31,179 bases of DNA, from the IMG/VR virus record IMGVR_UViG_3300021960_000320, positions 1 to 31,179 of that record; one strand, written 5' to 3'. Position 1 is the first letter of the stretch. Each line of letters starts with the position of its first letter. The notes beneath the pieces are model-generated. The model was not told the origin of the DNA, did no database searches, and was given only the letters and a program-made list of their open reading frames with translations. Source of the stretch: a virus. The position numbers were made by a program, and so were the translations under genes. This document shows positions 4,399 to 21,076 of this stretch, in pieces.

Positions 4399-5484
4399 TT
4401 ATTTTCTTTTTTGATTTAATGCGGCAGATAAGAATGCAGTAGCCCAATCTTGAGAAGATTCTGTTCCGGTTGGAGTAGATTTTACTTCAGGATTTTTGAG
4501 TTCTTTCTCTACATCGCTAACGCCCAGCGTCTTGCCGTGATTAACGAGGCTCCTTTCGTAAACATCTGGCTCCATTGCAAAAGCAAGAATCTTATACCAT
4601 TTGTTTAAGTCAACTTCGCCATTCTGATTAAGGAATAAATTAAAAAACTTTGAGTTGTCCTTAGTCATTTCCAACATGTCATTTACGTTTTCAACTTCAT
4701 AATTAAAGTCTTCACCGTCAATGTCAATTGTAATTGCTTTGTCAGACAAGATGCTTTGCGTTACGCTAGAGCTGTCTACAATGTTTGACCAGTTTTCTGC
4801 TAATTCAGCAGACTCATCTACTTTTGAAGTTTCTTGCTCCGGCTGTAGAAACTGTTCTTGCATCGTTTTATACTCTTGACGAATGCGCTCAGCATCTCTT
4901 TTAAGCATTTGCTTACCAATCTCAATGTCTTCAGGGTCGTTGTCTTCCTCTGAAAGATTGTATTTAGATACAATCTCTTTTTGGTACAACTTCTGGAACG
5001 CTGAGTCCGATAGGTCTGAATATTCAGAGCGCAACTTACTTCTCATAAGTTCTTCATGGCTCATCCCATCCACATCCAACTGGAAGGCCTCCAAGAATGG
5101 TTTTAAAGTGCCATTCTTTTCGTAATAATCAACTGCTTTCTTTATATAGTCATCTTTGAAGTTGTATTCAGATGAAGCCTCTTGCTCCAGTCCAGATAAC
5201 GCTTCAAGGATTTCTTCCATTGAATTGAACTTTCCTTCCGTAGTACTTTTTATATACTCCGAATAGTCCGGTTCAGTATTAACTTGCTCTTGTTGTTCTC
5301 CTTCTAGTTGCCCTTGTTGCTCTACCTCTGCTGCTGGTGTTGCATCTTCCGTAGGTTGTTCAAGTGGCTCAGTACCTCCTTCATCTTCTGTTTTGTCCTG
5401 TTGGTTTTGTACAGGAACATCAATATTAATGACATTTTCTGGAGATTCAGGAGTAAAGGTTTCAAACGTAATTTCATCAGACAT
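4399..5484 (-). CDS. Acidic scaffolding-like protein (361 aa)
   Basis: Probable prohead scaffold. Residues about 1-75 are a low-complexity Glu/Gln/Pro/Thr tract (for example QPTEDATPAAEVEQQGQ). The middle is helical and highly charged, and the protein ends in a short basic tail LNQKRK, typical of scaffolds that bind coat through a basic C-terminal helix. It lies between portal and capsid genes, the classical scaffold position, 20 nt before the capsid ATG. No protease catalytic motif is visible, so a maturation protease is unlikely. Confidence 0.72.
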   Translation of the reverse strand: MSDEITFETFTPESPENVINIDVPVQNQQDKTEDEGGTEPLEQPTEDATPAAEVEQQGQLEGEQQEQVNTEPDYSEYIKSTTEGKFNSMEEILEALSGLEQEASSEYNFKDDYIKKAVDYYEKNGTLKPFLEAFQLDVDGMSHEELMRSKLRSEYSDLSDSAFQKLYQKEIVSKYNLSEEDNDPEDIEIGKQMLKRDAERIRQEYKTMQEQFLQPEQETSKVDESAELAENWSNIVDSSSVTQSILSDKAITIDIDGEDFNYEVENVNDMLEMTKDNSKFFNLFLNQNGEVDLNKWYKILAFAMEPDVYERSLVNHGKTLGVSDVEKELKNPEVKSTPTGTESSQDWATAFLSAALNQKRK

Positions 5485-5513: not shown

Positions 5514-7715
5514 TTACAAGTTGTTGCCAAAATTAGACCGTTGTCCACCGGTCTCATTAGACTTTAAATTAGCTTTGAGGGTTTCAATTTCAGCTTCTAT
5601 TTGACCTTTTAATTGCTGCAATTGAATTTTAAATTGGTTTTCCATTTCTAGCTTTTGCATATCCATCTGTGCTACGTTCATAGCAGATTGCTGCTGTACT
5701 TGAGCATTTTGCATTTGCATTTGCATGGCTTGTCGCTGCTGCTCCTGCTTGCGTTTTTTCATTCTATATGCTAAAATGTACTGTGCCTTTTTAAGGTTTT
5801 TAGTGTTTTCAATCAAGATAATGTCCTCCATTTCTAAAAGACCACTACCCGCATACTGTAGTGCTATTGCTTTGAATTTGTCTTTTTCAAGGGTGTCTGG
5901 TCTATCCTCTATTACAATTCCAAAGTCTCTTGCGGAAAGGTCATCAGACGTTGCTAGGAACTTAATAGACTCTACTCCAAGAGCCTTTTTGTACGATGGG
6001 TGATATGTCTTAAACTTAATTAAGTCCTGAACTCTAATTACTATTGCTTTAGCAATCTGCTCAAGAACATATCTATCAGCCTCTACGCAGCTATATAATG
6101 CATTGTTAGAAGCCTCTTCTGCCATTTTAGTGACGTTAGACAAAGTGCGCGGGTCTAGCGTTGTACCATCAACATATTCATTGACACCAGTTATATCTCT
6201 TATTAACTGGATATTCTCTTTTATTAAGTTGAAATATGTTATCACGTCTCTTCCAAGGCCGTTTTCAATTTCTTCAATTGGTTTGTAGGGACTGGGGTTT
6301 CCGGCTGTGTCTAAATACCTGTAGACTAGTGTTCCTTTTTTGTTGAACAAGTCAAGAACATCTTTGGGTGTCATCTCAGCCCCGCCGCTTCCAAGAGGGA
6401 TATTTTCAATCGCGTCAAGTGCAATTTGAATGCCCTTAGGTCTAGATGTAGCAATCGCGTTTTGTAGTTTAAACCAATTAAGCTGAATTGCATCAGCCAA
6501 TGGTATAACTTGCTCCATTATAGAGCTGGCACGCATGTCATAAAAATCTGGAGCGAACAAAGAGTATGACATGCTTGTTTCTGTCATTGAATTCTTTGCT
6601 CTTTTCATATTGGTGCACAGGCCGTAGTCAAAAATGTAGTCTGTGTCTACAATCCATTTAGCTTTATATACAACTTTGTAGCTCGTTGTTGCATAGCTAT
6701 TAGACTTTCTTTTTTTCGCTTTTTTATAGACTCTGCTAATTCTATTTCCTCGCTTGTCTACTCTAGTTTCTACATCTAGTGTATTGACAGAAATAAACTC
6801 AATGTCTAAAACGGGTATTTGAAAGCTGTCATAATCTGAACCCACACCTCGTGAAGGCGGCATAGCCTGAGGGTTTTTGTATGCTCCAGAAAATTTTTCG
6901 GCAATGTCAGCAAATTGCTCTTCGCTAAAATTGTTACCCATTCTCCGAATATCGGACAATGACATCATGGTCATTTCTCCAATGTGCTGGGCATCGCTAA
7001 AGTTTCTATTCATGCAATAGCTCACAACTACATTTTCGGGGCGCACGTGACGCAACTTCACAACACCATTGTCTACGTATTCACGCACACCACAAACTCC
7101 AAAATCAAATACGTCTTGCAATAGGCGTTTTCTGATTTCATCGTATTCATTGATATTCAGCACGTTAGCGATTACCTCTTCGATTTCTTCACTTACTTTA
7201 TGCTTATAAGAGAAGTTCATGTGGATTTCTAGTTCTTCAGAATCGGTAGGGTCTCCGGGTTCTGGAGCTAAGGCCGAGTGATTAAGAAGTTCGGGATTCT
7301 CTTTAGAAAGCTGCTCTCTAAGTTTTATCTTGACTTCTTTTTTTGCGCGGTATTCAGTTTTTTCTTCTTCTGATATGCTATCAATAGCATTTGCAACAAT
7401 ATTATATGAGCGCTTTGAAAGTTTAGCCAAAGCGAGTCGTCTAAATCTGGCAACTACTGGAATAATGCTCCAGTCTATATTTAGCCATGAATCGTCAGCA
7501 CTTTCATTTACATCCAACATTTTCTTGTACTTGCTAATGGACTGTGTGCCCATAGCATAATCACGATATGTTGCGTAGTTATATCTGTTGCTGTAAAATA
7601 TTTTTCCGTTTTGTCCGCCGAACTCTTTATGTGCGGCCTTTACGTACTTTAGAATCCATGAAGCATTTTTTTCTTCATTTGGAATCAAATGTGAGGGATA
7701 GGATTGTTTGCTCAT
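5514..7715 (-). CDS. Portal protein (733 aa)
   Basis: Probable portal (head-tail connector) through which DNA is packaged. It follows TerL directly (TGATG overlap, sharing one base at 7715) and precedes the scaffold. The length matches large podovirus-type portals such as P22 (about 725 aa). Helical wing and stem regions are seen around residues 385-545 (an IMEQVIPLADAIQLNWFKLQNAI stretch, then LIRDITGVNEYVDGTTLDP with the typical portal ITGV motif). The last 80 residues are a Gln/Met-rich coiled coil resembling the C-terminal barrel or helix of P22-type portals. The ITGV-containing helix is the best family signal. Confidence 0.88.
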   Translation of the reverse strand: MSKQSYPSHLIPNEEKNASWILKYVKAAHKEFGGQNGKIFYSNRYNYATYRDYAMGTQSISKYKKMLDVNESADDSWLNIDWSIIPVVARFRRLALAKLSKRSYNIVANAIDSISEEEKTEYRAKKEVKIKLREQLSKENPELLNHSALAPEPGDPTDSEELEIHMNFSYKHKVSEEIEEVIANVLNINEYDEIRKRLLQDVFDFGVCGVREYVDNGVVKLRHVRPENVVVSYCMNRNFSDAQHIGEMTMMSLSDIRRMGNNFSEEQFADIAEKFSGAYKNPQAMPPSRGVGSDYDSFQIPVLDIEFISVNTLDVETRVDKRGNRISRVYKKAKKRKSNSYATTSYKVVYKAKWIVDTDYIFDYGLCTNMKRAKNSMTETSMSYSLFAPDFYDMRASSIMEQVIPLADAIQLNWFKLQNAIATSRPKGIQIALDAIENIPLGSGGAEMTPKDVLDLFNKKGTLVYRYLDTAGNPSPYKPIEEIENGLGRDVITYFNLIKENIQLIRDITGVNEYVDGTTLDPRTLSNVTKMAEEASNNALYSCVEADRYVLEQIAKAIVIRVQDLIKFKTYHPSYKKALGVESIKFLATSDDLSARDFGIVIEDRPDTLEKDKFKAIALQYAGSGLLEMEDIILIENTKNLKKAQYILAYRMKKRKQEQQRQAMQMQMQNAQVQQQSAMNVAQMDMQKLEMENQFKIQLQQLKGQIEAEIETLKANLKSNETGGQRSNFGNNL

Positions 7716-16024: not shown

Positions 16025-16606
16025 TTATCCGTCTATCCACGTCTCTAGAACACCGTCAATTGCGTCTGCATCCATAACGTAGACCTCTTGGCCCTCTATG
16101 AGGTTTTCAAAGGCATAGCGTGAGTGAAAGAATACCTTCTTTCCTATCATGTCTTCATCAGGGTGGCATAAAATAAGCCCCTGTATCTCGCTTTTGCGTG
16201 GTTGTTCTAGTGAGTGCAGTAGACTCGTGAGCATTTTAGGCTCATGGATATAAGGCAATACAGCCACTTTATTGTTTAGGCTGGTCATCTTGCCTGCATC
16301 ATCAACCTTAAAAAACGCCATATCGCTTGGAACAAGCAAATAATTGTCGTCATCTATCCGTTGCATGGCATCTTCCATCTCAACACAGGTATAATGGAAA
16401 TACAATTTATCTCCACTGGATACCTCAGACCCTCTAAATGATGCGTGTACCTTGCCGTATATCTTGGCATGCCATGTTGGCTTGTAAGATGGGTCTAGGA
16501 ATAGCTTAGAGCCGTTCTCCAAGACTTTCTCTCTCTCGTAAGGGTCTCGCCCTATATCAACTATTAAACGCCTCCCTGCGCCTAAAATTGCCTTGCTAAT
16601 GTCCAT
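16025..16606 (-). CDS. GroES-like co-chaperonin with two Cpn10-like folds (193 aa)
   Basis: Probable co-chaperonin that caps host GroEL to help fold phage proteins such as capsid. The C-terminal half matches GroES closely in pattern: NKVAVLPYIHEP, a variable region where the mobile loop would lie, QGLILCHPDEDMIGKKVFF, then EGQEVYVMDADAIDGVLE (compare the G-E-x-x-IM-x-x-x-DI-x-x-IE end of GroES). The N-terminal half repeats the layout: GSKLFLDPSYKP, AKIYGKV, SSGDKLYFHYTCVE, DDDNYLLVPSDMAFFKV. At 193 aa it is twice the usual 97. The ATG at 16606 was chosen; the frame extends to an ATG at 16660. It is the first leftward gene beside the divergent control region. Confidence 0.7.
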   Translation of the reverse strand: MDISKAILGAGRRLIVDIGRDPYEREKVLENGSKLFLDPSYKPTWHAKIYGKVHASFRGSEVSSGDKLYFHYTCVEMEDAMQRIDDDNYLLVPSDMAFFKVDDAGKMTSLNNKVAVLPYIHEPKMLTSLLHSLEQPRKSEIQGLILCHPDEDMIGKKVFFHSRYAFENLIEGQEVYVMDADAIDGVLETWIDG

Positions 16607-17158
16607 TGGAAATTTTACTGTAAAAAAACAAACTTGATACTCTAGAGCCAAATTAAACATAAAACCCTAATAACCAAACAAAAAACACCCCTAGGCTACC
16701 GGGTGGGGTAACTATAACTAGTTGGGGGGTCACGCCCGCGCCGCGGACTCACCTACCCGCAGGGGGTACCCCGCGCAAGGCCTTTGGCCGGCGTGCAGTA
16801 CCCAAGCCAAACTTTTTGCTCTGTCTAAAGCCGGAATAGCCAAGGTATTGGCTAAAACTGGGTTAGAACTGACTGAAGCCGGGGATTGGCCGACCAAACC
16901 GACGGAGATATTGGGAAAATAGACTTCGTCTAAAACCACAATAACACCCCCTCCAACCTCGGCTCTCGCTTCGCGTGCCAAACTGCGTTGCATAATGCGC
17001 TCGGTTTAGCGGGCGAAGCCCTGCGCGCCTGAGGCTCTTGTCCTATCCTTTCCCCTATTATCCCCTTTCCTTCCCTCGATTTGGATTGTATTGGAAACTT
17101 TCCGTATCTTTGCTCTGTTCACTCGGAACACTGCTTTTCACTTAACACATACACACAC
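16607..17158. other. Divergent control region, GC-rich and hairpin-rich
   Basis: About 550 nt without a convincing gene, between the leftward GroES-like gene and the rightward lysine-rich gene. The stretch about 16690-17040 is visibly richer in G+C than the rest. It contains CACCC/GGGTG (16687-16706), AACTA/TAGTT (16700-16714), GGGGTACCCC (16764-16773), TAGCCAA/TTGGCTA with loop GGTA (16837-16854), TAGAC/GTCTA with loop TTC (16920-16932) and GGGC/GCCC with loop GAA (near 17010). A pyrimidine-rich tract follows at 17036-17080, then the promoter. Candidate roles are an origin, a structured RNA or a regulatory hub. Confidence 0.55.
17080..17112 (+). promoter_or_regulatory. Bacteroidota-type promoter for the early region
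   Basis: TTTG at 17080-17083 (-33) is followed by a 21-nt spacer and TATCTTTG at 17105-17112 (-7, full match to TAnnTTTG). The leader to the ATG at 17159 is about 40 nt and ends in a CA-rich segment. Best promoter for the rightward early transcript. Confidence 0.7.
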
Positions 17159-17560
17159 ATGAAAGCACACACAAAAGCCCCCAAGACAACTGCCGCTAAA
17201 TCTGCTAAAGCAGACAACAAGTCACAAGACCTTAAACTGCCCTTGGCAGTTTATCTGCGGTATCGTTACCGATTGGCCTTACAGGCCAATAACCTTGGCA
17301 AAGCCAAAGGTTTAGCCAACAGGTTGGCTAAAATGGACGAGCAATTAGTGGTAAAAGGTGAAACCTTTACCACTAATGCCGGGGCACTCAAGTTTCAGGA
17401 GTCTTTACAGACTCCGAAAGCCACGAAGGCAAAGACTTCTACGAAGTCTAAACCTGCTTCTACGAAGCAGACTCATAATCTTAAGGACCTTGTCCTTGAG
17501 ATTATGGCACTGAACATCGACATGGCTGACAAGGCAACTTTGCTTGCAAAGTTGGTTTAA
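17159..17560 (+). CDS. Lysine/alanine-rich protein encoded by a hairpin array (133 aa)
   Basis: Basic protein of unknown function. The N-terminus is KAHTKAPKTTAAKSAKADNK, the middle is helical (VYLRYRYRLALQANNLGKAK), residues about 85-105 hold a second Lys/Thr/Ser-rich linker, and a hydrophobic helix ends the protein (LKDLVLEIMALNIDMADKATLL). It may bind nucleic acid. The ATG at 17159 fits the promoter; an in-frame upstream ATG at 17081 lies inside the promoter and is rejected. Its DNA is extraordinary: from 17201 to 17553 nearly every segment is one arm of a perfect or near-perfect short hairpin. It is followed by a strong terminator, so it is probably a separate early transcript. Confidence 0.75.
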   Translation: MKAHTKAPKTTAAKSAKADNKSQDLKLPLAVYLRYRYRLALQANNLGKAKGLANRLAKMDEQLVVKGETFTTNAGALKFQESLQTPKATKAKTSTKSKPASTKQTHNLKDLVLEIMALNIDMADKATLLAKLV

Positions 17561-17598
17561 GTCTAATGATGGCACAAAGAGGGAGGCTAACGCCTCCC
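17201..17598 (+). repeat. Tandem array of 13 stem-loops within and after the Lys-rich gene
   Basis: Stems and loops in order: TCTGC/GCAGA (17201-17214); TAAACTGCC/GGCAGTTTA (17233-17253); CGGTA/TACCG (17258-17271); ATTGGCCT/AGGCCAAT (17272-17290); a 9-bp stem with one bulge (17291-17312); TTTAGCCAA/TTGGCTAAA (17311-17332); a 15-bp stem with one bulged A (17344-17377); GGAGTCT/AGACTCC (17398-17415); AGACTTC/GAAGTCT (17433-17449); CTGCTTC/GAAGCAG (17454-17470); a 15-bp stem with one G-U pair (17474-17506); AACTTTGC/GCAAAGTT (17536-17553); then the terminator stem (17581-17598). Loops are 2-4 nt, often TAC or TTAC. Stems and loops cover roughly 70% of 17233-17553. Confidence 0.9.
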
Positions 17599-17605
17599 TT
17601 TTTTT
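17581..17605 (+). terminator. Intrinsic terminator after the Lys-rich gene
   Basis: GGGAGGC (17581-17587), loop TAAC, GCCTCCC (17592-17598), then seven T residues. Textbook rho-independent terminator 20 nt after the stop codon. Confidence 0.92.
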
Positions 17606-17646: not shown

Positions 17647-17880
17647 ATGGCACAAAAATCAGCCACCCCTAACTCAAAAAAGTCACATCAGATGACTTCA
17701 AAGAAGTGCAACACAATCATGGAAGCCATCCATTGGTTCTCTTTGATTACTGCTGCGATTGTATTCTTATTGACAGCATGGTGCTTTCATAACGAAGTTA
17801 TTGGCGAGTCAGTCACTCTTGGACTACTCGCGAATTCTTTGATGTTCACCTGTGTTGCCATCATCACTAACCCTAAATAA
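17647..17880 (+). CDS. Small two-helix membrane protein (77 aa)
   Basis: The N-terminal 24 residues are polar and basic (MAQKSATPNSKKSHQMTSKK). Two membrane helices follow: about 27-46 (AIHWFSLITAAIVFLLTAWC) and about 54-73 (VTLGLLANSLMFTCVAII). No family is recognised. It lies between the terminator and the AAA+ gene, followed by a GTCTAATGA nonamer (17883-17891). It could be a membrane partner of the ATPase module downstream. Confidence 0.7.
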   Translation: MAQKSATPNSKKSHQMTSKKCNTIMEAIHWFSLITAAIVFLLTAWCFHNEVIGESVTLGLLANSLMFTCVAIITNPK

Positions 17881-17945
17881 TAGTCTAATGAAAGCAGGTT
17901 AAAGTTGGACACCTTAAAGGACAACAAATCAAATCTCAATGAATC

Positions 17946-19436
17946 ATGAAGTACATTCTCAATTTGGCCAACGGCCAGCAATTCAAAGGAAAGAATCTTG
18001 ATGAGGTTCTCCGGAAAAGCGGCTTGCATACAGCAAGCGGTAGACTTACCAAGAGTCAAGCCCTCGATAGGATTTTAAGAAACAACGGCATGTTGTTTCA
18101 GTTGGATTCTAAAAGAGATTGGCAACAAATCAAGTCAGCCAAAGACTTTCAGTCCGGAGGACAAACCGGAACCCGTCAAGAAGAAGAACTAATTCAACAA
18201 GAAGGTGGAGGTTCATCTGCCGAATCAAAAGATGGACAACAAAAACAACAACCCATGACCATAACAGAACAAGTCAAACAAGAATTGAAGCAATCTCCGG
18301 AGGACAGAAAGTCTAAAATGGATGAACTCAAAGAAGAATCGGCAATCATGCAGAATGCTAAAGAGTCATCCGAGGAAGACATGAAGAGGTCTATTGAAGA
18401 ACGCGAAGAAAAAATGTCAAAGAAGAAGCAACTTGAAGAGGCCGGACTTTGGGATGATGAAGAAATGAAGCCCCTTACTCAAAAGATTCAGAGTAGTATT
18501 TCTGAATTGAGTGATGAGATAGACCGCCATTCGGATATGGTAGACCATTATGCTCAACGACATCAAGATATTCTAAAAGAGTTAAGAGAACTTGAAGAGG
18601 CTCCGGAGGAGCAACCAAGCGGAGTTGTTGTCGGTGAACGACAAGAGCATCCAATGCAGTCAAGACTTATTCGGAAATGCAAGGCAGTTCAAATGGCTCA
18701 ATCATCTAATCAAGATGCTTTGTATCCTATGCTTGTCGGCCCAGCCGGTTCCGGTAAGACTACGGCAGCGCGTAATGTGTCTTTGACTTTGTTCGGTGAC
18801 GATGCTATTGCCGAGGGCAAGTTTGGTATGCTATCTCTCAATGAAGAATCAGAAAAGAGCGAAGGCTTTGGCTTTATCAGTCCGATAGACAAGATGTATA
18901 AGTCTACTGACTTCCGTAGAATCTATGAGAATGGCGGTGTGTTTCTGCTCGATGAGATTGATGCTTCCAATGCTAACACATTGACCTCTTTGAATGCTGC
19001 GATATCAGCCCCCTATGCTTCCTTCCCCGACAAAGTCGTGGCTCGTCATAAAGACTTTGTCTTGATAGCCGCCGCTAATACCTTCGGTAATGGTGCCGAT
19101 GGTTTGTATGTTGGTCGTAACGAATTGGATGCTGCATCAAGAGATAGATTCTCTACGATGGTCTGGAATTATGATTGGGATGGTGTTCGTGCTGCTCGAC
19201 CAAAACATAAAGCGGTCGTTACTCTTATTGAATCTTTGTCTAAAGCGGCTCTTAAACTTGAGATGCAACACATCATCTCTCCTCGTGCTGCCTTGTTTGC
19301 TCCGTACTTATTAGAGTCTGGTGATACAATGTGGGATGTCCTTCAAGACTGCGTGTTCAAAGGACTACCTAACGATGACCAACGCACTCTTATTCAAGAA
19401 GCCGAATTGTCTATTACCGAACTTCGTAACATGTAA
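17946..19436 (+). CDS. MoxR/CbbQ-like AAA+ ATPase (496 aa)
   Basis: ATP-driven remodelling enzyme. The N-terminal 60 residues form a small domain (MKYILNLANGQQFKGK and following). Residues about 60-220 are a highly charged Glu/Lys/Gln-rich coiled coil. The AAA+ module contains Walker A GPAGSGKTT (about 263-271), Walker B VFLLDEIDAS (about 332-341), sensor-1 AAANTFGNG (about 375-383) and arginine-finger region ASRDRF (about 396-401). The motif style (LDEID, AAANT, DRF) is that of MoxR/CbbQ ATPases, which usually work with a VWA-domain partner; the next gene may be that partner. Both are followed by another small membrane protein gene. Confidence 0.88.
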   Translation: MKYILNLANGQQFKGKNLDEVLRKSGLHTASGRLTKSQALDRILRNNGMLFQLDSKRDWQQIKSAKDFQSGGQTGTRQEEELIQQEGGGSSAESKDGQQKQQPMTITEQVKQELKQSPEDRKSKMDELKEESAIMQNAKESSEEDMKRSIEEREEKMSKKKQLEEAGLWDDEEMKPLTQKIQSSISELSDEIDRHSDMVDHYAQRHQDILKELRELEEAPEEQPSGVVVGERQEHPMQSRLIRKCKAVQMAQSSNQDALYPMLVGPAGSGKTTAARNVSLTLFGDDAIAEGKFGMLSLNEESEKSEGFGFISPIDKMYKSTDFRRIYENGGVFLLDEIDASNANTLTSLNAAISAPYASFPDKVVARHKDFVLIAAANTFGNGADGLYVGRNELDAASRDRFSTMVWNYDWDGVRAARPKHKAVVTLIESLSKAALKLEMQHIISPRAALFAPYLLESGDTMWDVLQDCVFKGLPNDDQRTLIQEAELSITELRNM

Positions 19437-19439
19437 TCT

Positions 19440-20300
19440 ATGGAAGTCTATAATAAAGTCTATGATACGCCATTGGAATTTTTCCAATTCTGCAAAGCAA
19501 ATGCTTTACCGAACTACTCAAGTCACGAGAGGGAACAAAGTCGCACTGAATTCACAGGCACTAAATCTTTTGAAGAGGCAGTAAGTCTTATTGATAAAGG
19601 ATGGGAGCCAAGCAAGATGAAGTCTATGTCTAATAGAATCACTCTGCGTTCAGTCAAACAAAGAATGAAACTAAAGCGTGACAACTATGGCGGTACTCTT
19701 TTGATTGATAGATATACTCAAGGAATTGACAAGTCATTCCGAAGAAAGTATCGCTCTCCAAAGGAAGACAAGCATGTAACTATTGCTATCGAAATCAATG
19801 AAACAGGTAACATGACAATCAATCAGATATTCTTGAAGGCTTGTGTTGTTTCATCTATCGTTGAGAATCTACGATTGCAGAATGTTTCTTGCAGTATCTA
19901 TGGATACTTTGCCATTGCTGATGTTGGTGAAAAGTTCGGCTTAAGCGAGGTTGTACCAATCAAAAGACGCAACGAGAAACTCCAACTCTATAAACTTGGC
20001 GCAATGCTTCACCCTTCTTGCTTCCGTAGACTTTACTTCGGTAGACTTGAGAACGGCAGCAAAGCAAGTGACAACCCAATAAGTCACATGAAAGACTTTG
20101 TCTTTGGAGGTTCTTATGGTTGCGCTAACTCAACACTATCTGCTAAGACTAAAAGTCTTGTGAGCGAAGTGGCAAGGGATGAACGAGTCCTTTACATACC
20201 TCAAATTAGACTTGCAAAGTTTAGTCTACATGATGAGGAGGATGCCACCAAGTGGGTCAATGACTTCGTACAAACTGCAAATGCTATGTTCAATGAATAG
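19440..20300 (+). CDS. Possible VWA-like partner of the AAA+ ATPase (286 aa)
   Basis: It starts 3 nt after the ATPase stop, so the two are almost certainly co-expressed. Residues about 55-90 are a basic region. A Rossmann-like alternation follows: KHVTIAIEINETGNM (about 116-130), a helix, then VSCSIYGYFAIADVG (about 149-163), and later strands near 206-235 with FGGSYGCANSTLSAKT. This resembles VWA-like proteins that pair with MoxR ATPases, but the first strand reads IEINETGN and lacks the canonical DxSxS MIDAS, so metal binding may be lost. VWA assignment is an inference from pairing and secondary-structure pattern. Confidence 0.6.
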   Translation: MEVYNKVYDTPLEFFQFCKANALPNYSSHEREQSRTEFTGTKSFEEAVSLIDKGWEPSKMKSMSNRITLRSVKQRMKLKRDNYGGTLLIDRYTQGIDKSFRRKYRSPKEDKHVTIAIEINETGNMTINQIFLKACVVSSIVENLRLQNVSCSIYGYFAIADVGEKFGLSEVVPIKRRNEKLQLYKLGAMLHPSCFRRLYFGRLENGSKASDNPISHMKDFVFGGSYGCANSTLSAKTKSLVSEVARDERVLYIPQIRLAKFSLHDEEDATKWVNDFVQTANAMFNE

Positions 20301-20502
20301 ATTCAAAAGAAGGTATCGGCTTGCAGCCGGAGCGATAGCAATAGTGTTGGTTTATGTGGCCTCTAAATCATTAGAGGCTGCATCCAATGCTGCATCCTAC
20401 CACAATCAAGTAAGATGGGACATGGTGTACAATGTTCAAGCATTCATTTGCCTTTGTGCATCACTGATTCTTGTCTATAGTTTATTCTCTAATTCTAAAT
20501 GA
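20293..20502 (+). CDS. Small two-helix membrane protein (69 aa)
   Basis: Begins MNRFKRRYRLAAGAIAIVLVY with a basic N-terminus and a first membrane helix (about 10-24). A second helix lies at about 47-64 (VQAFICLCASLILVYSL). It overlaps the VWA-like gene by 8 nt. The first in-frame ATG at 20281 would add four residues. With the 77-aa protein upstream, the ATPase pair is flanked by two membrane proteins. Confidence 0.65.
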   Translation: MNRFKRRYRLAAGAIAIVLVYVASKSLEAASNAASYHNQVRWDMVYNVQAFICLCASLILVYSLFSNSK

Positions 20503-20554: not shown

Positions 20555-21076
20555 ATGTCTAAAGAATCAATTGAAAACGAAATCAAGTACAAAGCATTCC
20601 TCGGTGCATACGAGCATAATCTTGATGATGCTATTAAAAAATTCAAGGAGCCAAAGGCCGGTGTAGACTTTGAGCACTTCCTTCCAAAGATGGAAGAAGC
20701 AGTAGAGCAATGGCTTGGCGCACCACTCATGGACTTTATCTTGCACCGAGTCGAGTTGAAGCCAAACAAAGTATCTCGCGCTTCAGTCTATTTGAACTTG
20801 TCATTGATTAAAAGTTGGCAATACAACATGGATAGCATTGGTGCTAACGATGTAGACTTACTTCCAGTCAGTGAGGTTAAAAGTCTATTTGAGCAAGCCG
20901 TGTTTATTTCCGTAGGCTTTGCAATCCTTACTGATATGCTATTTAGGAATAAAAAACATAAGGACAACATTGACAAGGAAATTGACGCTTATGTTAAAAA
21001 GTCTATGGATGAAATATCTACTGATGACTTAATGTCTATGCTTGGTCTTGGCGAATCAACTGATAATCAAGAATAA
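20555..21076 (+). CDS. Unknown helical protein (173 aa)
   Basis: I do not recognise this protein. It is helical, beginning MSKESIENEIKYKAFLGAYEH, with an amphipathic stretch SLFEQAVFISVGFAILTDMLF (about 114-134) that is hydrophobic but probably buried rather than membrane-spanning. It ends in an acidic tail DDLMSMLGLGESTDNQE. ATG 20555 was chosen because the upstream extension (from 20471 or 20531) looks non-native. Confidence 0.65.
   Translation: MSKESIENEIKYKAFLGAYEHNLDDAIKKFKEPKAGVDFEHFLPKMEEAVEQWLGAPLMDFILHRVELKPNKVSRASVYLNLSLIKSWQYNMDSIGANDVDLLPVSEVKSLFEQAVFISVGFAILTDMLFRNKKHKDNIDKEIDAYVKKSMDEISTDDLMSMLGLGESTDNQE

Follow-up and report, generated by a model that had tools for sequence, protein, structure and literature searches.

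A phage-borne MoxR-type AAA+ ATPase and its near-obligate DUF7192 partner, a predicted VWA adaptor without a canonical MIDAS

What could a phage do with a MoxR-like AAA+ ATPase and the partner protein that is encoded directly behind it? This question is raised by a 31179-bp virus contig (IMG/VR record IMGVR_UViG_3300021960_000320), the whole of which is called the window here. A sequence-only reading had pointed out an AAA+ ORF lying 3 nt from an ORF of 286 aa, with small membrane proteins at the edges. Both ORFs of the pair are real and the gap between them is indeed 3 nt. The genes concerned are the following:

17647..17880, + strand: ORF with two hydrophobic helices, 77 aa, 5' of the AAA+ gene; not conserved and probably outside the module
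17946..19436, + strand: MoxR/CbbQ/NorQ-type AAA+ ATPase, 496 aa, complete (Pfam and PHROG matches, invariant residues, AF2 model, Foldseek)
19440..20300, + strand: DUF7192 protein, 286 aa, predicted VWA-fold adaptor without MIDAS (Pfam PF23822, AF2 model, NorD VWA match, HHalign to CobT)
20293..20502, + strand: two-helix membrane protein, 69 aa with its most likely start (46-50% identity to the 64-aa proteins of the relatives L002, L003 and L004)
20555..21076, + strand: downstream protein without a known family, part of the gene string of the pair (homologues in place in four relatives)

In profile searches the first ORF of the pair matches Pfam AAA_5 (E 1.4e-10) and belongs to PHROG_249 (E 1.4e-34, residues 105-486), a family which carries the name "porphyrin biosynthesis"; this name is a misnomer. 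The AAA+ motifs are Walker A (G265-K271), Walker B (D336-E337), sensor 1 (N378), the Arg finger (R401) and sensor 2 (R447), and the residues K271, D336, E337, N378, R401, and R447 are invariant in AAA+ alignments of 10 and of 34 sequences from diverse phages. Against the PDB, the AAA+ profile finds Midasin best (E 1e-38) and also CobS (E 3.4e-17), and when the AF2 model (pLDDT 86) was searched with Foldseek, the best 19 matches were all CbbQ or NorQ (target TM 0.65-0.75), with CbbQ 6l1q and NorQ 9qh4/9qh8 as top entries. With these profile matches, invariant motifs and structural matches the assignment as a CbbQ/MoxR-style AAA+ is borne out, and the product of 17946-19436 is a MoxR/CbbQ/NorQ-type AAA+. 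Its model consists of an N-terminal alpha/beta domain (aa 1-68), a flexible or disordered linker, a coiled coil (118-218) made of two antiparallel helices (118-165 and 172-218), and the AAA core (~238-495). The long coiled coil seen by the sequence-only reading is thus present, but it is not an insertion, as the AF2 model places it N-terminal to the core. Where the helix-2 beta-hairpin insert was sought, the model has short strands near 309-310 and 318-319.

The second ORF matches DUF7192 (PF23822; E 1.6e-12, 47.8 bits versus a curated cut-off of 27), a Pfam family without function for which we found no mention in the literature, as well as PHROG_1909 (E 2.8e-16). Searches of the PDB by the DUF7192 sequence alone found nothing convincing. 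The AF2 model, calculated from an alignment of 58 sequences from the window and IMG/VR, reached a pLDDT of 90 and a pTM of 0.86, and all five Foldseek matches with E < 0.001 are NorD VWA domains in NorQ-NorD complexes (E 4e-6 to 8e-4). VIA returned 299 chains at Z >= 5, and among the matches listed VWA domains predominate, with NorD on top (Z 8.6-10.1), besides the Rea1 MIDAS domain (Z 9.3) and other VWA domains (Z 7-8). Since the Foldseek TM-scores to NorD are ~0.3 and the VIA rmsd is ~5 A, the match has to be read as a shared fold and not as close similarity. Among viral models, the search lists DUF7192 proteins first and then phage CobT/VWFA proteins. Similarly, HHalign aligns the DUF7192 profile with that of the CobT VWA over 126 columns (P 1.4e-5, score 45.7), compared with scores of at most 19.4 for 30 column-shuffled profiles and of 22.6 for the AAA profile. 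For the CobT profile, database sequences alone were used, retrieved with a bait sequence: those of nine phages or phage-like plasmids plus one of cellular origin. A VWA (Rossmann-like) fold of the DUF7192 partner is therefore supported, because its AF2 model best matches the NorD VWA as bound to NorQ. The VWA-like pattern described before has in this way stood up to the structure prediction that had been proposed as a check for 19440-20300, with NorD (Z 10.1) as best match. The DUF7192 proteins of the Rhizobium-phage type (L005 5707-6852, L009 7144-8322, L083 5642-6688) are extended at the N-terminus by a further domain of ~60-100 aa, which bears a motif of the LGGxWN type.

A canonical MIDAS is absent from the partner, as had been noticed from the sequence: the window protein reads EINET at 118-122, the DxSxS position. 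In the family this position is mostly N-x-S/G-x-S, and residue 118 is a D in 5 and an N in 30 of the 58 sequences. Judged on the DxSxS, the motif is degenerate across the DUF7192 family, and the window protein departs from it further. In NorD, it is the target and not NorQ binding that requires the MIDAS (PMC9976466). By analogy, DUF7192 may retain the contact with its motor, and since the metal site which NorD uses for its target is lost, the target would be held by another surface, for which the strongly conserved residues K175, H191-P192, R196-R197, F200, E204, and Y226-G227 are candidates. The family also has a conserved segment at aa 77-104, in which G84, G95, P97, and M100 are among its most conserved residues. 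HHalign pairs G84...G95-x-P97 with the CobT segment preceding the first VWA strand, and just before this strand NorD carries the finger that enters the NorQ pore (PMC13036017). The conservation of 77-104 fits such a pore-inserting finger, going by the analogy to NorD. At conserved positions of this putative finger the window clade departs from the family (P97 to D, M100 to F).

Does the pair belong together beyond this contig? Scanning with an AAA profile gave 80 viral contigs, and together with other loci DUF7192 is present in 87 of 90 AAA loci, which were gathered with a profile seeded by DUF7192-linked members. The gene is mostly located directly downstream of the AAA gene; it lies upstream in Enterococcus phage vB_CECAV_04 (L007) and in L021. 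In the three loci without DUF7192 the contig breaks off no more than 125 nt behind the AAA stop codon, or within the AAA gene itself. Among GenBank phages, 236 Staphylococcus phage records contain the AAA and 236 contain DUF7192. The co-occurrence that the sequence-only reading had wished to see in other genomes is accordingly strict, and the AAA-DUF7192 pair is a near-obligate module in very different phages. A viral-contig protein search with the DUF7192 of the window itself found no relatives. Four IMG/VR relatives keep the order of a hairpin-rich ORF, AAA, DUF7192, two-helix protein and downstream protein, with protein identities of 27-62% to the window along this gene string; for the product of 20555..21076 the homologues in the equivalent place are 27-30% identical. 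In a quick AAA tree, with several long branches among the CobT-linked members and a DUF7192-linked set that had been gathered by a profile of the same kind, a branch with an SH-aLRT of 99 has the 42 DUF7192-linked AAAs on one side and nine CobT-linked AAAs plus one cellular CobS on the other, and the partner trait requires one change versus a shuffled mean of 9.4. As far as this tree reaches, the DUF7192-linked AAAs are a single clade apart from the CobS-CobT AAAs.

The pair also occurs in modified forms. L078 contains two tandem DUF7192 copies (4661-5479 and 5561-6424), and mycobacteriophages such as JoeDirt (JF704108) have two copies several kb apart, as if one AAA served two adaptors. The AAA gene of L004 (1631-3011) and the DUF7192 gene of L082 (2068-2912) are each split into two ORFs by a frameshift, which is either real or comes from the assembly.

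The two small two-helix membrane proteins which the sequence-only reading had placed at the edges are present, but the start of the 3' one has to be moved. In the close relatives L002, L003, and L004 the ATG of a 64-aa two-helix protein overlaps the DUF7192 stop, and the window gene therefore most likely starts at 20293 (69 aa) and not at 20179. Membrane proteins as members of the core module were rejected: for the 5' ORF 17647-17880 no homologue was found even in the closest relatives, and the 3' protein is conserved only in L002, L003, L004, and L016, while elsewhere nothing or an unrelated gene follows DUF7192. Control of host membranes, which had been brought up as one possible function, is left unsupported, with the small membrane proteins outside the conserved module.

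A separate observation concerns the DNA upstream of the pair. The ORF 17159-17560 contains ten perfect hairpins with stems of 6-10, compared with a mean of 1.6 and a maximum of 5 in 500 synonymous-codon permutations (repeat z 7.9). In the L002 and L016 homologues, hairpins of other sequence occupy the equivalent positions, with a paired C-G to T-A change among the differences, and further hairpins stand at positions of their own. Between this ORF and the pair, a terminator-like inverted repeat with a T run is found at 17576-17603. Much longer arrays run through the first genes, AAA and DUF7192 in a separate clade (L042, L059, L060, L063, L066), the AAA genes of which contain 16-20 hairpins where 2-3 are expected (z about 10). 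Arrays are located at L060 3379-4681, L059 4165-5494, and L042 3744-4550, and also in L063, L066, L081, and L095. The hairpins are spaced by 30-40 nt and formed by synonymous codons (z about 8-10 versus synonymous permutation), and in L060 ribosome-binding sites (TGGAG) lie in hairpin loops. The arrays start at the 5' side of the pair-bearing transcript and thin out in the downstream direction, with hardly any on the opposite structural side; relative to dinucleotide shuffles, the enrichment is highest in the 1.2 kb that precede the AAA gene. They occur in at least three separate AAA lineages; because many AAA loci are without them (e.g. L035, L022), they do not characterise the module in general. 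Regarding hairpin-studded phage coding sequences, nothing relevant was found in the literature.

How might the pair work? AAA and DUF7192 very probably constitute a MoxR/VWA-adaptor remodelling pair. The predicted folds, the pairing, the loss of the MIDAS signature and the gene neighbourhood come from the present analysis; a hexamer, a finger in the pore and a rotation are inferred by analogy to NorQ-NorD (PMC13036017, PMC9976466). According to this analogy the AAA+ subunits would assemble as a hexamer, on which one DUF7192 adaptor would dock with its finger pushed into the central pore of the ring. ATP hydrolysis would then turn the adaptor, which would thereby pull on its bound target.

What this target may be is suggested by the neighbourhood. 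In the window, the genes for head protein, portal and terminase are found on the - strand at 3-10 kb, and those for a RecE-like exonuclease, replication initiator and helicase on the + strand at 25-28.5 kb, which is the strand of the pair. The - strand also encodes a 211-aa protein (16025-16660) with a weak match to the phage co-chaperonin GroES family PHROG_13932 (E 5e-4), for which no Pfam match was found. Across the loci, PHROG scans identify exonuclease, DNA primase, clamp loader and DNA methyltransferase as same-strand neighbours of the pair, and terminase subunits, tail fibre and tail proteins on the opposite strand. In Staphylococcus phage 812 the pair is located at about 19.6-21.4 kb, and the late promoters of a Kayvirus are concentrated at 36-66 kb (PMC7698491). 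The timing of the pair is not named in papers dealing with transcription in Kayvirus and Listeria phages. Neighbourhood and Kayvirus promoter positions argue for early expression, and speak at best for the timing and not for the target. Since the pair groups with replication and nucleic-acid genes, the target would most likely be a nucleic-acid-handling complex of host or phage, which the pair would remodel or disassemble at an early stage of infection; an early nucleic-acid complex is a quite possible target, as a guess guided by the neighbourhood. In most of the CobT-CobS loci inspected in phages and phage-plasmids (L101-L110), genes for DNA polymerase III alpha, sigma-70 or primase are nearby, which again points to a role in replication or in the early phase.

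The same arrangement bears on two other roles. A chaperone function in virion assembly, in which the pair would help to build head or tail, has been proposed for jumbo-phage MoxR-vWA pairs (PMC7824862), and PMC7911831, citing Scheele et al. (2011), links p618/p892 of the archaeal virus ATV to tail development. Moreover, in Rhizobium phages the pair is flanked on both sides by the structural genes, although these are encoded on the other strand. However, because the pair groups with replication genes and lies opposite to terminase and tail genes, and in phage 812 also away from the region of most late promoters, assembly of a phage complex, as likewise considered by the sequence-only reading, is disfavoured, and we regard this role as unlikely. 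The early-side location would also suit a factor for anti-defence or host takeover, which would take apart a defence or signalling complex of the host, and in Gordonia phage Octobien14 the pair lies amid small variable genes, a few kb from an anti-restriction gene. There is no specific evidence against this function, but the module is widely conserved and not patchy in the phage groups seen, which would be less typical of anti-defence genes, and we therefore consider it improbable.

A possible coupling to proteolysis is hinted at by part of the loci. A gene for a SprT-like HExxH protein with a putative zinc ribbon is found upstream of the AAA gene in 19 loci, directly adjoining in most of them (L047 386-1045, L049 3721-4392, L092 3746-4315, and 16 other loci), and an HExxH near the N-terminus of six of nine phage-type CobT proteins agrees with the fusion of a vWA to a metallopeptidase in jumbo phages (PMC7824862). 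A system in which a metallopeptidase receives its targets from the ring, or has them made ready by it, is nevertheless rather improbable, as no peptidase gene can be recognised beside the pair in the window and in most loci and the match to Pfam SprT-like (E 8e-4) is below the cut-off. Least likely is an accessory role in metal chelation like that of CobS/CobT, which would raise cobalamin production as suggested for viral CobST by annotation and by PMC8651126. The CobS match of the AAA profile, the name of PHROG_249 and the distant similarity between the DUF7192 and CobT VWA profiles are in line with it, but Midasin outscores CobS, the MIDAS is lost, and the pair is carried by the 236 Staphylococcus phage records. 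Staphylococcus hosts are not known to make B12 by the cobaltochelatase route. With no CobT_C (PF11775) match at E 0.01 and no CobN found in the record, which may be a fragment and whose host could supply CobN, a cobalamin role of the pair is disfavoured. Overall, a MoxR ring motor with a dedicated VWA adaptor that remodels an early nucleic-acid-handling complex is probably the best explanation. A doubtful extension of it would be that the DUF7192 pairs represent a phage-specific MoxR lineage whose adaptor has lost the metal site and has kept the finger, and which acts early as modular machinery for dismantling or degrading host complexes, joined in part of the lineage by a SprT-like metallopeptidase encoded separately.

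Among known systems, NorQ-NorD of Paracoccus, which acts in nitric oxide reductase maturation, resembles the pair in the MoxR AAA+ fold, the predicted VWA fold of the adaptor (Z 10.1), the separate genes and the conserved stretch that directly precedes the first VWA strand, the place of the finger in NorD. NorD differs in its size of ~70 kDa, in having one more domain at its N-terminus and in an intact MIDAS that the target requires (PMC9976466), whereas DUF7192 has 286 aa and no MIDAS, and the target is not shared. Cellular and viral CobS-CobT likewise have a similar AAA and a related VWA profile (HHalign P 1.4e-5), and both are widespread two-gene phage modules; however, their AAAs fall into separate clades, the pair has no CobT_C match, and in CobT both the DxSxS and the SDG motif are intact and an HExxH is frequent at the N-terminus. 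The MoxR-vWA pairs of jumbo phages and archaeal viruses (PMC7824862, PMC7911831) are also virus-borne and encoded by neighbouring genes, but their VWA proteins are larger and contain a MIDAS and/or a fused metallopeptidase. Midasin/Rea1, the best AAA profile match (E 1e-38) with a matching MIDAS-domain fold (Z 9.3), is in contrast a single giant eukaryotic protein that acts on pre-60S ribosomes.

The families PHROG_249 and DUF7192 and viral MoxR-VWA systems as a kind were already known. What looks new is DUF7192 as a predicted VWA adaptor without MIDAS, the AAA lineage of its own and the separate SprT-like gene that goes along with part of this lineage. Owing to the 2026 structures of NorQ-NorD the mechanism can be tested directly, and phages that are easy to work with (M. 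smegmatis phages, Staphylococcus phage 812) contain the pair. In several hundred sequenced phages, therapeutic Staphylococcus kayviruses among them, it is labelled "porphyrin biosynthesis" and "hypothetical protein", an annotation that is corrected here to a MoxR motor with a predicted MIDAS-less VWA adaptor, distinct from CobS-CobT.
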